Source of the DNA: Roseiflexus sp. RS-1
GTDB taxonomy: Bacteria; Chloroflexota; Chloroflexia; Chloroflexales; Roseiflexaceae
DNA: 64,000 nt
Reading direction: 5' to 3'
Assembly: GCF_000016665.1 (NCBI RefSeq)
Contig: NC_009523.1
Span: 992,001-1,056,000 of the forward strand
Shown piece after piece: positions 39,844 through 51,463 of the stretch. The translations under genes and the position numbers were made by a program. Within the stretch, counting starts at the first letter, position 1. Every line of letters begins with the position of its first letter. The notes under the pieces were generated by a model. That model made no database searches. It saw only the letters and a program-made list of their open reading frames with translations, and was not told the origin of the DNA.

Positions 39844-40323
39844 ATGCGCAAAGATCTGCACGAAATCAACCGTCGCGCCTGGAAAGAGGCGACAAGAGCG
39901 CACAATAGTCACAAAGCCGATCAGGCACGATTTCTGCGCGAGGGCGGCAGCACGCTCTTTCCCGAGGAACTGGAGTTGCCTGGAGCGGTGCGCGGCAAAC
40001 GATTGCTGCACCTGCAATGCAACGCCGGTCAGGATACGCTCAGCCTGGCGCGGCTCGGCGCGTCGGTCACCGGCGTCGATATCAGTGATGAGGCGATTGC
40101 GTTCGCCTGTCGGCTCTCTGCTGAGTCTGGCATTCCGGCGACATTTCATCGCGCCGATCTCTACGACTGGCTCGACGATGCGGTTCAGCGCGGCGAGACG
40201 TTCGACATCGTGTTCAGTTCGTATGGTTTCCTTTTCGCACGGCTGAAAGAGATGCCAGGGTCACCACAAGACTGTGGCGATGATGGGCGCATAATCAAGT
40301 ATGTAGCCAGCAAATTTGAGTAA
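39844..40323 (+). pseudogene. SAM-dependent methyltransferase truncated by integron end
   Basis: GGGAGG precedes ATG 39844. The frame encodes a normal methyltransferase N-terminus (EINRRAWKEATRAHNSHKADQ; motif I KRLLHLQCNAGQDTLSLARLG; DETFDIVFSSYGFLF-type motif). After residue ~130, at about 40234, the frame enters DNA duplicated from the cassette gene at 46473-46612 and ends out of homology. The C-terminal half is missing and was not found elsewhere in the window. The integron's distal boundary has therefore cut this host gene, or a deletion has joined them. Confidence 0.85.
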
Positions 40324-40366
40324 CCTGTTCGTGGTTTTGCCCAACGTCTGTCTCCTGGAAGAAGTC
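40234..40366 (-). pseudogene. Truncated distal cassette, 5' copy of the 45790-46584 gene
   Basis: Closely similar (with scattered differences) to 46473-46612, which includes the ribosome site, start and first ~37 codons of the two-TM cassette gene. The similarity stops at 40234, where host methyltransferase sequence begins. It is the last cassette and has lost its 3' part and attC. Confidence 0.8.
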
Positions 40367-40431
40367 GCCCAACGGCATCGAGCTCAGCCGCGCTGCCGAT
40401 AGGCGGCGTCGGCTGGAAGCGCAGGTTAGGC
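40367..40431 (-). other. attC site of the ParB cassette
   Basis: Plus-strand ends GCCCAAC and GTTAGGC; inner arms CAGCCG / CGGCTG pair. It lies nine bases beyond the ParB-like stop. Confidence 0.85.
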
Positions 40432-40439
40432 GCAGTGGC

Positions 40440-41255
40440 TTAATTGGTTGAACGCTTGCCTGAGGTCTTGCGCAATTGTTTCTGAACTTCTTGCTTGACG
40501 CCCTGTGCTTTGAAGGCTTCGACCATCTCGGCTACCTGTTTCTTCAGTGACTCAGGGATAGTGGGACAATCGAAAGGACAGTTCCGTACCACATAATAGT
40601 TGAAAGCGCCTTCGGCAGCTTGATCTACCAGGGTATCAAGGTTTTCGAGACCAGGGTCAGCACGCTTGATGATTTCCTGTTGCACATCTTGGGTGAAACC
40701 CCTGATCTTGTTCCAAACTTCCACCTGTTTATCAGCATCAAATCTTTGGGCGAGTCGGGCGAGGGCTTCTGTGTTTCTTGCTTCTCCCGCTACCAATTGT
40801 TCCTGGAGTTGGGGAGCGAGATCCAATAGTTGGACGTATTTACGTATCGTGGAGACACCTACCCCTGTTTCGCGACTGACGGTCTGAAAATTTCCAAACC
40901 TATCGAGGAGGGCCTTGAAGGCAACGGCCTTGTCGCGTGGGTTCATATCGGCGCGGTGTACGTTCTCGACTAATGATATGGCTGTGGCATCAGCGTCAGT
41001 CATACTGTCGCGCACGATGGCAGGAATCATTGACCATCCGATTTGCTTGCATGCAAGCAGACGACGTTGACCAGCGACAAGCGCGTAACGGCCATCTGGC
41101 TTCTGAAACACGGTGATGGGGCTGAGAAGCCCTTGCTTTTCGATGCTTTTCGCGAGGTCTTCGATGGTGCTGTCATACTGACCATCTGCGAGGTTCTTGC
41201 GCGTATTGAATTCAGATATATCGACATCTTGGAGGGAGATTTCGCGTACGTTCAT
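40440..41255 (-). CDS. ParB/Spo0J-like protein in an integron cassette
   Basis: A 271-residue protein. Residues 1-100 form a ParB N-terminal nuclease-fold domain (SIEKQGLLSPITVF, ALVAGQRRLLACKQIG, AISLVENVHRADMNPRDKAVAF), followed by a KorB-like helix-turn-helix (VSRETGVGVSTIRKYVQLLDL). The C-terminal ~100 residues are charged. No ParA partner is in the cassette or nearby, so chromosome partition is unlikely; a DNA-binding or CTP-switch role in regulation or plasmid stability is possible. ATG 41255 is chosen (AGGGG upstream); a TTG two codons earlier is the alternative. Confidence 0.85.
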   Translation of the reverse strand: MNVREISLQDVDISEFNTRKNLADGQYDSTIEDLAKSIEKQGLLSPITVFQKPDGRYALVAGQRRLLACKQIGWSMIPAIVRDSMTDADATAISLVENVHRADMNPRDKAVAFKALLDRFGNFQTVSRETGVGVSTIRKYVQLLDLAPQLQEQLVAGEARNTEALARLAQRFDADKQVEVWNKIRGFTQDVQQEIIKRADPGLENLDTLVDQAAEGAFNYYVVRNCPFDCPTIPESLKKQVAEMVEAFKAQGVKQEVQKQLRKTSGKRSTN

Positions 41256-41278
41256 AGCCAACCCCTATCTCTGTCTGC

Positions 41279-41347
41279 GCCCAACGGCCTGCGCTTCACC
41301 TGCGCCGCGCAGCGAGCGAAGCGGTCGGCTGGAAGCGCGTGTTGGGC
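41279..41347 (-). other. attC site of the SRPBCC cassette
   Basis: Ends GCCCAAC / GTTGGGC; arms GCGCTTCACC.. and ..GGCTGGAAGCGCG are partly complementary. It follows the SRPBCC stop by 27 bases. Confidence 0.85.
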
Positions 41348-49528: not shown

Positions 49529-49537
49529 CGCTTTTAT

Positions 49538-50344
49538 CTATGGGAGATAAGGACATGATGTTCCAGCATGTGATGCTGCGCCGCGCTGAAGATAGTCTTC
49601 ATAATCCTTGATACATTCGGGAGAACCCGTAATTAGCCAGAGTTTGAAACTGCCAAGGCCGAGTCCTTGAACAGGTTCACCTGGGCCAAACTCTTTTACA
49701 TGGCATGTACCAGAGTTATCAATGTCACCATGTGCAAATATAACTTGGTTTGGACCTGCAGGAGGAGGCATAGGCGCGCGTGGCTGTTGATATAACCATT
49801 CGCCTAAGAACTCAATCTTACACATAAGAGTACTCGAAGAGGATTGTGGATTGGGTTGGATACTTGGTATAGTCGGTTGTACAGGCACAGCAGAGATACC
49901 ACATCCCAAATCCCTACTTGAAACCTGCTCCACCGAGACAGGAATACGCACTTCATACGTCCCGCTCTTGCCATTCACCTGAACGTTTCCAGCCCGCACA
50001 TCATCAGACCAGCGTAACACAAACTCCATATTCGTCCCAGGCGGCGCAACCAAACGCTGGCTTACAGATGTATTTCGGTACTCGCTGTACTTGGCGGAAA
50101 GGCTACCTTGCACAATGGACTGATACCCCGCGGAAACGCCTGCTTCAAACTCAACAGTGGTTGCAAAGTCCCGTGACTTGGTTTGTTCGCTATCGCCTTT
50201 GCCGCCGCAGTTGTTAATGCGGACTATCTCATCATAGACAACAGTGTTTTTACTGAGTTCAACCAGTTGAACATCAGGGTTGGAAGCACATCCACTCAAG
50301 AGGAGTACTGCTAATGCGATTCCGAAAAGGATGTGTTTGCTCAT
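49538..50344 (-). CDS. Lipoprotein of unknown function, first cassette
   Basis: A 268-residue protein with a signal peptide and lipobox LLLSGC (Cys19). The mature part has NNCGGKGDSEQTKSRDFATTVEFEAG, a beta-rich region (residues ~60-140) and a C-terminal extracellular part with several cysteines. I recognise no named family. As the cassette next to attI it should be the most recently inserted and best expressed. GGTGAAG precedes ATG. Confidence 0.78.
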   Translation of the reverse strand: MSKHILFGIALAVLLLSGCASNPDVQLVELSKNTVVYDEIVRINNCGGKGDSEQTKSRDFATTVEFEAGVSAGYQSIVQGSLSAKYSEYRNTSVSQRLVAPPGTNMEFVLRWSDDVRAGNVQVNGKSGTYEVRIPVSVEQVSSRDLGCGISAVPVQPTIPSIQPNPQSSSSTLMCKIEFLGEWLYQQPRAPMPPPAGPNQVIFAHGDIDNSGTCHVKEFGPGEPVQGLGLGSFKLWLITGSPECIKDYEDYLQRGAASHAGTSCPYLP

Positions 50345-50361
50345 TGCACTTCACCGTAGCG

Positions 50362-50418
50362 GGCTAACTTGTACTTATCTCGACTCTCTATGTTATCTTG
50401 CGTGACTCTCTATGTTAT
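50362..50418 (-). other. attI-like recombination site
   Basis: The plus-strand GGCTAAC at 50362-50368 (GTTAGCC in cassette direction) is the junction between cassette 1 and the integrase side. Next to it the 15-base sequence GACTCTCTATGTTAT occurs twice (50382-50396 and 50404-50418), 22 bases apart, like the direct repeats bound by IntI in attI. A TTGACA on the minus strand at 50483-50488 points toward the cassettes, but no well-spaced -10 follows, so the cassette promoter is not identified. For intI a TTGACC (50437) and TATCAT (50463) lie 20 bases apart, a weak pair. Confidence 0.65.
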
Positions 50419-50503
50419 GCCATACGACAGCCACAGTTGACCAGGGACTTACACGCTCATGCTATCATACAACGGAAATTTCTGTCAAAGCAGGAGCACC
50501 ATC

Positions 50504-51463
50504 ATGCCGGAGAGAAAACTGGCCGATCGCATCCGCGACGCCATCCGCCTGCGTGGCTATTCCATCCGCACCGAGAAAGCCTACCTCCATTGGTACGAAC
50601 GCTTCGTCCGCTTCCACAAACTCCGCCACCCCGCCGCCATGGGCGCACCGGAGGTTGAAGCCTTCCTCACCCACCTCGCTGCCTGCGAGCAGGTTTCCGC
50701 TTCCACTCAGAATCAGGCCCTTGCCGCCCTTCTGTTCCTCTATCAGGAAGTTCTCGCCATCCCCCTCGGCGATGTGCACGCCCTGCGCGCGAAGAAAAGC
50801 ACCTACGTCCAGCCCTACCTCAGCCATGACGAATGCCTGCGCATCCTCGCCGAATTGGACGGCACGCCTTACCTCGTCGCCTGCCTTCTCTACGGCAGCG
50901 GACTGCGATTGCTCGAAGCGCTGCGCCTGCGTATCCAGGACCTCGATGTTGAGAACTCCCTCATCACCGTTCGCAACACCAAGTCCAACCGCGACCGCGT
51001 GACCTTCCTCCCAGACGAGGAGCGGTTTCTCCAACGCCTCCGCGCCCACCTGGAGGGGGTCCGCCGCCTTTATGAGGTTCACCTTGACGTTCCGGTCTCC
51101 ATGCCGCCAGCGCTGGCGCGCAAATATCCGGGAGCAGCCACCTCCTGGGAATGGCAGTACGTCTTCCCTTCCCGTGACCTCTCCGTAGACCCCCGTACCC
51201 TTGTCGTCAAGAGGCATCACCTCCACCCCAGCGGTGTTCAGAAGGCCATCACCGCCGCTGTCCATGCCGCAGGCATGACCAAACGCGCCACCGCCCACAC
51301 CCTGCGCGCTGCCTTCGCTCACCGGCTTAAAGAGGCCGGTTACCAGCTCGACGATATCCAACAACTCATGGGGCATGCCGACATTCGCACCACTCAGCAT
51401 TACCTTGAAGGCCAGGCGCCTGCCTGCAAACGCTTACGCGGTCCCCTATCCTCCAGAACCTGA
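50504..51463 (+). CDS. intI: Integron integrase IntI
   Basis: A 319-residue tyrosine recombinase. N-terminal core-binding domain: RLRGYSIRTEKAYLHWYERFVRFH, VSASTQNQALAALLFLY. Catalytic residues are R135 (YGSGLRLLEALRLR), K160, H265 and R268 (AHTLRAAFAH), H291 (MGHADIRTTQ) and Y300. Between ~193 and 223 it has the extra segment unique to IntI (MPPALARKYPGAATSWEWQ, followed by YVFPS), then VKRHHLHPSGVQKAI. The residue after R268 is Ala where most have His, and the end (QAPACKRLRGPLSS) departs from the usual YTHVLNRGG. ATG 50504 has AGGAG upstream. Divergent from the cassettes, as in other integrons. Confidence 0.93.
   Translation: MPERKLADRIRDAIRLRGYSIRTEKAYLHWYERFVRFHKLRHPAAMGAPEVEAFLTHLAACEQVSASTQNQALAALLFLYQEVLAIPLGDVHALRAKKSTYVQPYLSHDECLRILAELDGTPYLVACLLYGSGLRLLEALRLRIQDLDVENSLITVRNTKSNRDRVTFLPDEERFLQRLRAHLEGVRRLYEVHLDVPVSMPPALARKYPGAATSWEWQYVFPSRDLSVDPRTLVVKRHHLHPSGVQKAITAAVHAAGMTKRATAHTLRAAFAHRLKEAGYQLDDIQQLMGHADIRTTQHYLEGQAPACKRLRGPLSSRT

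Follow-up and report, generated by a model that had tools for sequence, protein, structure and literature searches.

Sedentary chromosomal integrons of the Vibrio and Xanthomonas type combine a chromosomal integrase (IntI) gene, divergent from an array of similar attC sites, with a fixed place by a host gene and mostly unknown cargo, and are accompanied by attC clusters elsewhere and by broken copies in relatives. We analysed a stretch of 64,000 bases from the genome of Roseiflexus sp. RS-1 (hereafter the window, G000:C1:992001-1056000, G000 being the genome), which holds a locus alike in these respects, as far as its place may be called fixed. We put at about 95% the probability that this locus is a complete chromosomal integron, with its platform between an aldehyde dehydrogenase-like gene and an argD-like gene, and its identity as an integron is near certain. 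Compared with the sedentary type, the array is small (nine attC sites) and lies beside the argD-like gene, some members of the genus are without the platform at this place, and the host is probably a photosynthetic hot-spring bacterium that we take to be thermophilic. A study of Xanthomonas (PMC12444791) describes an integron beside ilvD, with intI recombination and clusters of attC sites lacking integron-integrases (CALINs).

Chloroflexi appear among the divisions with intI in a 2008 paper (PMC2426708), and Chloroflexota among the integron-bearing groups in two later ones (PMC8618304, 2021; PMC9668308, 2022). In our scan, 43 of 400 Chloroflexota genomes, that of the window included, encoded an IntI above the curated cut-off. 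The original prediction, which had seen in this locus an extension of the range of integrons, is therefore withdrawn on this point, and nothing is new at the level of the phylum. The IntegronFinder 2.0 paper (PMC9024848) does not use the word Chloroflexota in its main text; a paper on a thermophilic vent microbiome (PMC10295459) uses the word integron frequently; and no account of the present locus was found in the literature searched, where PMC1976395 matched both Roseiflexus and integron, subscription journals and supplements lying outside its coverage. The novelty that is left is a divergent integrase lineage with an unusually clear comparative record of cassette movement.

The locus resembles other integrons of the phylum in encoding an IntI above the same cut-off, and several attC-like sites also occur in some of their loci (L062, L063, L066 and L078 among them); none was detected in L065, L069, L073 and L079, all of these loci being scanned on one strand. 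Loci L040 and L041 did not enter the analysis. It differs from them in that its IntI is 44–52% identical to 12 aligned Chloroflexota IntI and pairs only with that of a second Roseiflexus genome, G330. The nearest loci in named genomes were 34–51% identical and came from many phyla (best 80 among the matches listed). For class 1 IntI1, most of the rows listed showed 43.5% identity across 94% of the query sequence, and the attC sites of the window presumably resemble the aadA type. Unlike class 1 integrons, the present integron is chromosomal, and the Pfam and NCBIfam names among the scanned cassette proteins included no resistance gene, no resistance database having been searched.

Integrase, attI and attC sites

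The platform and its sites are given below by window position, with scores (in bits) from two attC covariance models, R1 and R3.

50459..51463, + strand: intI, integron integrase (TIGR02249, alignment, tree); a later ATG at 50504 is common to G330
50361..50430, no strand assigned: attI, GGGCTAAC core and two GACTCTCTATGTTAT copies; end set by eye
50459..50488, - strand: putative Pc promoter of the cassettes (TTGACA-18-TAGCAT), directed into the array; consensus match only
49454..49532, + strand (bottom strand reads +): attC 1, R1 90.6, R3 51.2
48556..48632, + strand: attC 2, R1 70.2, R3 36.6
47445..47521, + strand: attC 3, R1 67.2, R3 68.7
46604..46672, + strand: attC 4, R1 66.7, R3 56.8
45721..45799, + strand: attC 5, R1 89.1, R3 52.9
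42638..42718, + strand: attC 6, R1 60.5, R3 47.1
41856..41943, + strand: attC 7, R1 59.9, R3 32.7
41276..41351, + strand: attC 8, R1 69.3, R3 39.0
40364..40435, + strand: attC 9, the weakest with R1, R1 32.4, R3 39.4

The intI product scored 328.6 bits against TIGR02249 (integron integrase, cut-off 265), and remained below the cut-offs of the XerA-type model NF040815 (130.5 bits, cut-off 220) and of XerC (84.9 bits, cut-off 335). In an alignment with 13 other IntI, namely that of G330 and 12 from other Chloroflexota, the R, HxxR, H and Y residues were kept and the motif ALARKYPxA..W.WQYVFP was present; we take these to be the catalytic residues and the IntI-specific insert, respectively. In a tree of 77 rows, among them one Xer-like outgroup, the integrases of the window and of G330 formed a pair that lay among the IntI rows, though on a long branch and without a settled place.

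Model R1 was built from nine attC sites of G330 and of a further Roseiflexus genome, G395, and included no site of the window. It recovered nine sites between 40364 and 49532, at 32.4–90.6 bits; of the eight further matches to E = 1, three (15.9–16.8 bits) lay on the + strand, and five (13.7–23.4 bits) lay on the minus strand and overlapped attC sites. Model R3, built from 12 attC sites of Methylobacillus, Pseudoduganella and two distant Chloroflexota families, found the identical nine in the 64 kb (E 1.3e-14 to 1.0e-5) and no further + strand site; its other matches to E = 10 were two on the minus strand, one of 19.9 bits that covers an attC and one of 14.5 bits. The E-values of both models are rough. 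All nine sites lay on the + strand with either model. An Rfam search of the window at gathering scores returned three tRNAs and three CRISPR-DR28 matches and nothing attC-like. A first strict pattern scan gave two sites in the window and zero or one per shuffle (n=20), after which the threshold was loosened; at the strictest threshold of the later scan, five sites were found in the window and none in any of 10 dinucleotide shuffles. Of these five, four are attC sites of the array and one (51818-51914) is an unrelated palindrome.

Neighbouring attC sites were spaced 580–1111 bases apart, except for one interval of 3083. Several ended in GGCTAAC/GTTAGCC, deviating from strict RYYYAAC/GTTRRRY, and the similarity of their arms reached 97% in the best pair with a median of 84% (aligned bases, 36 pairs). 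The recognised cassette genes are all directed away from intI, and the G+C content of the array (50.4%) is lower than that of the two flanking stretches (60.7–61.3%). These results bear out the original prediction as to an IntI-type recombinase with the integron-specific insert, a divergent run of minus-strand genes, and nine attC-like sites, which the covariance models recovered; by profile scores the recombinase is distinct from Xer. The GTTRRRY/RYYYAAC ends do not hold in strict form for several of the sites, and the ten cassettes become nine attC-bearing cassettes and a remnant at 40234-40366.

At 60 °C, the predicted dG of the bottom-strand folds ranged from -12.8 to -21.0 kcal/mol, and the folds shown for three sites were hairpins with single unpaired bases in the 3' arm. 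A special heat stability of these sites was considered and rejected, since nine window and six G330 sites fell within the range of 14 others, likewise rich in G+C. If the integron works in what we presume to be a thermophile, it would test the folding and recombination of single-stranded attC hairpins near 60 °C, and would offer a heat-stable IntI for structural work and tools; hot-spring mats would be a natural setting for measuring cassette turnover outside pathogens.

The attI core (50361-50368) is followed by the 15-base repeat GACTCTCTATGTTAT, present twice (50382-50396 and 50404-50418), 22 apart. The position of attI adjoining intI is supported by two G330 arrays that part at the core and by a second copy in the RS-1 genome. 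One Pc-like consensus match was found, against 0.5 expected by chance. We propose that IntI (50459-51463) would recombine folded attC bottom strands with attI (about 50361-50430), that circular cassettes would enter at attI, and that attC x attC events would excise or reshuffle them; cassette genes may be transcribed from the Pc-like promoter within the intI leader. The sequences themselves show the integrase gene, the sites and their orientation, and differing arrays at a conserved attI; that the enzyme is active, how the promoter is used and what the cassettes do, we infer from established knowledge of integrons.

An Xer- or phage-type integrase beside a family of palindromic repeats would agree with three further PF00589 matches in the genome, two of them within about 35 kb, with the attC-like sites scattered in the genome and with palindromic repeats elsewhere in the window. 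However, the product passed TIGR02249 while scoring far below the XerC cut-off, nine sites in one orientation were matched by an independent attC model (R3) from other organisms, and cassette edges fall at att sites. We consider such an arrangement extremely improbable, and the locus is treated below as a chromosomal integron.

Evidence for past cassette movement in Roseiflexus

In G330, the same intI adjoins the same argD-like gene on two contigs (C24 and C193), which have in common 5841 identical bases beginning GGCGGGCTAAC at attI; past that point their cassettes differ. A third contig, 90.3% identical to the other flank over 1695 bases, runs into an array. The place of the platform, between the aldehyde dehydrogenase-like and argD-like genes (names by eye), is the same in the window strain and G330, and cassette content varies there: in the eight Roseiflexus loci compared (matches of at least 150 bases), cassette 6 was the only window cassette shared. 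In G316 and G400, the flank matches lie 275 and 217 bases apart, compared with about 12.4 kb in the window, indicating that the integron is absent from this gap; G335 has a broken intI elsewhere, in a different setting. The IntI of G395, a member of the same genus, belongs to another lineage in the tree, and no close argD-like match (43%) was found in that genome by which to compare the place.

Cassette 6 was found in three settings (the window, G330 and locus L190 of the RS-1 genome), at 98.4–99.9% identity. The G330 copy is 99.87% identical over 751 bases, compared with 90.3–93.5% for the flanks, and then continues, from a different insertion point, into the first 55 bases of the same insertion sequence (IS) as in the window, with which the contig breaks off. 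The L190 copy, 73 kb from that of the window, is without the IS, is 98.4–98.6% identical and lies directly at a second attI (G000 1115815; 82% identical over query positions 1-107 of 138), beside which no intI was found in L190; its attC has a loop of another length, and its MauE gene is broken into two open reading frames (ORFs). At the visible outer edges of the cassette (right in L190, left in G330), the likeness ends at the AAC of the att site, as expected of integrase products. The comparisons clearly point to past movement of window cassettes among sites and suggest that the integron was likely active recently within its own lineage. Past activity, which the original prediction had drawn from the attC arms, thus finds firmer ground in the recurrence of cassette 6 and in the parting of arrays at attI, and the different cassette content expected of other Roseiflexus genomes was observed in G330, G316 and G400 being without the integron.

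The intI genes of the window and G330 showed no difference across 50794-51545 (752 bases) and 30 differences within 50636-50793 (158 bases); dS for the argD-like gene was 0.21. This mosaic points to a recent swap of intI pieces between lineages, probably by homologous exchange. The Xanthomonas study (PMC12444791) reports recombination at intI too. The dN/dS of intI was 0.12, a ratio made unreliable by the mosaic. Such homologous exchange would also suit a once-active integron that is now frozen, in which intI stays intact without recombining and the arrays differ by old events, homologous recombination and IS traffic; the IS in cassette 6, the truncated array end, the divergent C-terminus of IntI and the broken G335 copy fit this picture as well. 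Against it stand the open intI frame with a product 98% identical to that of G330, the dN/dS for what it is worth, the two G330 arrays that part at attI, and a shared cassette far more alike than the flanks. We judge a frozen integron unlikely, and prefer one that was recently active.

One integrase may also serve two attI platforms, namely the window array and the integrase-less attI at 1.116 Mb. The likeness of the two attI over 107 bases and the placement of cassette 6 directly at the second would be so explained; however, the second platform may have owned an intI when the cassette entered, no sign of action in trans was seen, and that copy has a split MauE gene. We regard this as possible, though doubtful. 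Beyond it, a heat-adapted, divergent integrase lineage might move cassettes between two attI platforms of one chromosome, one of them without an integrase gene, while intI is swapped piecewise between Roseiflexus lineages, so that platform and cassettes would circulate separately from the chromosome; this is a speculative proposal and quite unlikely as it stands.

Several points weigh against the assignment of the locus as a complete chromosomal integron. The window IntI missed the narrower integrase model NF011946 (258.5 bits, cut-off 435), and its C-terminal part (HTLRAAFAHRL, TTQHYLEG) is unlike that of other IntI. The branch of the window/G330 pair measures 1.42 changes per column and has no settled place in the tree, in which a single Xer-like row was included and the bootstrap had not converged. 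An IS interrupts one cassette, and the array is truncated at its distal end. The two G330 arrays come from one draft assembly and could reflect a strain mixture or an assembly error. Finally, recombination by the integrase at this locus is a deduction from sequence comparison, and none was observed.

Across the RS-1 genome, R1 gave at least 18 matches, including eight of the window's nine sites, three at 1.112-1.114 Mb, three at 5.48-5.49 Mb and at least four single sites. At least 16 matches were found in G330, 4 in G395, 2 each in G316 and G335, and 1 in G400; these counts are lower bounds, because 150 candidates were scored per genome. The single sites of RS-1 could represent insertions at attG-type places, which Loot et al. 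reportedly described in 2024. Such places are also treated in PMC12901181, which cites that work.

The region of L190 at 3772-7953 (G000 1111771-1115952) holds a second, integrase-less integron, with four attC matches, an attI relic and ORFs that are toxin-antitoxin-like by eye. At 7893-12037 of locus L193 (G330 contig C23), a cassette of about 4.1 kb lies between two attC sites (83.8 and 59.6 bits). Its genes encode a pair of ABC-2 permeases together with an ABC ATPase and a radical SAM/SPASM peptide maturase, and it also holds a 34-residue ORF that matched no family. The cassette thus has the look of an entire cluster for a peptide of the ribosomally synthesized and post-translationally modified (RiPP) type, contained in one integron cassette. 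In locus L063 of G325, from another Chloroflexota class, the attC sites at 9160-9232 and 13346-13417 are by eye nearly the same as attC 5 of the window (45724-45795), a likeness that suggests cassette exchange across the phylum.

Cassette contents, insertion sequence and dispersed repeats

The array content is listed from the attI side to the distal end.

49538..50344, - strand: gene of cassette 1, whose 268-aa product is by eye lipoprotein-like and matched no family
49107..49391, - strand: cassette 2 gene, DUF4177-like, 21.8 bits, under the gathering cut-off of 25
47528..48541, - strand: cassette 3 gene, REase-ARP (PF22558), PD-(D/E)XK nuclease, E 1.8e-42
46674..47432, - strand: cassette 4 gene, DUF3800, E 2.5e-13
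45790..46584, - strand: cassette 5 gene, 264 aa, no family above cut-off
42645..45728, - strand: cassette 6, MauE-domain gene at 44755-45657 (E 2.3e-22) and a lipoprotein-like gene from 42765, IS-split
43454..44579, + strand: IS5-family insertion sequence within cassette 6, target duplication AGT
41965..42568, - strand: cassette 7, BrnT toxin gene at 42230-42568 (PF04365, E 4.2e-30) and a small partner gene
41355..41850, - strand: cassette 8, in which no gene stands out by eye, no family search having been aimed there
40440..41261, - strand: cassette 9 gene, ParB/Noc-like (TIGR00180, 121.3 bits, cut-off 58.45)
40234..40366, - strand: remnant, like the 5' end of cassette 5 (by eye, against 46473-46606), fused to a truncated gene
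39844..40233, + strand: truncated methyltransferase gene at the array end (Methyltransf_25 above cut-off), junction at 40234

The small partner of BrnT in cassette 7, which had no Pfam match, is perhaps an antitoxin. Known phage defence was considered as a role for the cassettes and rejected: PADLOC, run on eight proteins of the window and two of G330 (a set that lacked cassette 8 and the MauE protein), matched one protein only, through cross-hits of its ParB domain. At 39844-40366, the methyltransferase gene is cut at residue 130 and joined to the piece resembling the start of cassette 5. In other genomes, 24 matches above 100 bits were found for it, all stopping at residue 130. The gene was rejected as a resident of congeners, four of five of which gave weak partial matches (34–44% identity), with none in G316.

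The IS in cassette 6 matched DDE_Tnp_4 above its cut-off and IS5_4 at 58.2 bits, below the cut-off of 140. Its junctions were read against the IS-free L190 copy, which gave the target duplication AGT. The RS-1 genome holds 21 full-length copies at 100% listed identity, that of the window counted. The transposase frames contain a run of 15-base repeats, and in many of the G330 copies the alignment covers both sides of this stretch but not the stretch itself. The run CCCCCCTTTTT lies at the overlap of the two frames and may reflect frameshifting.

The three CRISPR-DR28 matches lie at 8230-8253, 17327-17350 and 24471-24494 (-). Copies of a dispersed repeat family occur around 8.1, 17.2, 24.4 and 51.8 kb of the window, the last (51720-51957) near intI, and the same family is found at the ends of both G330 contigs.

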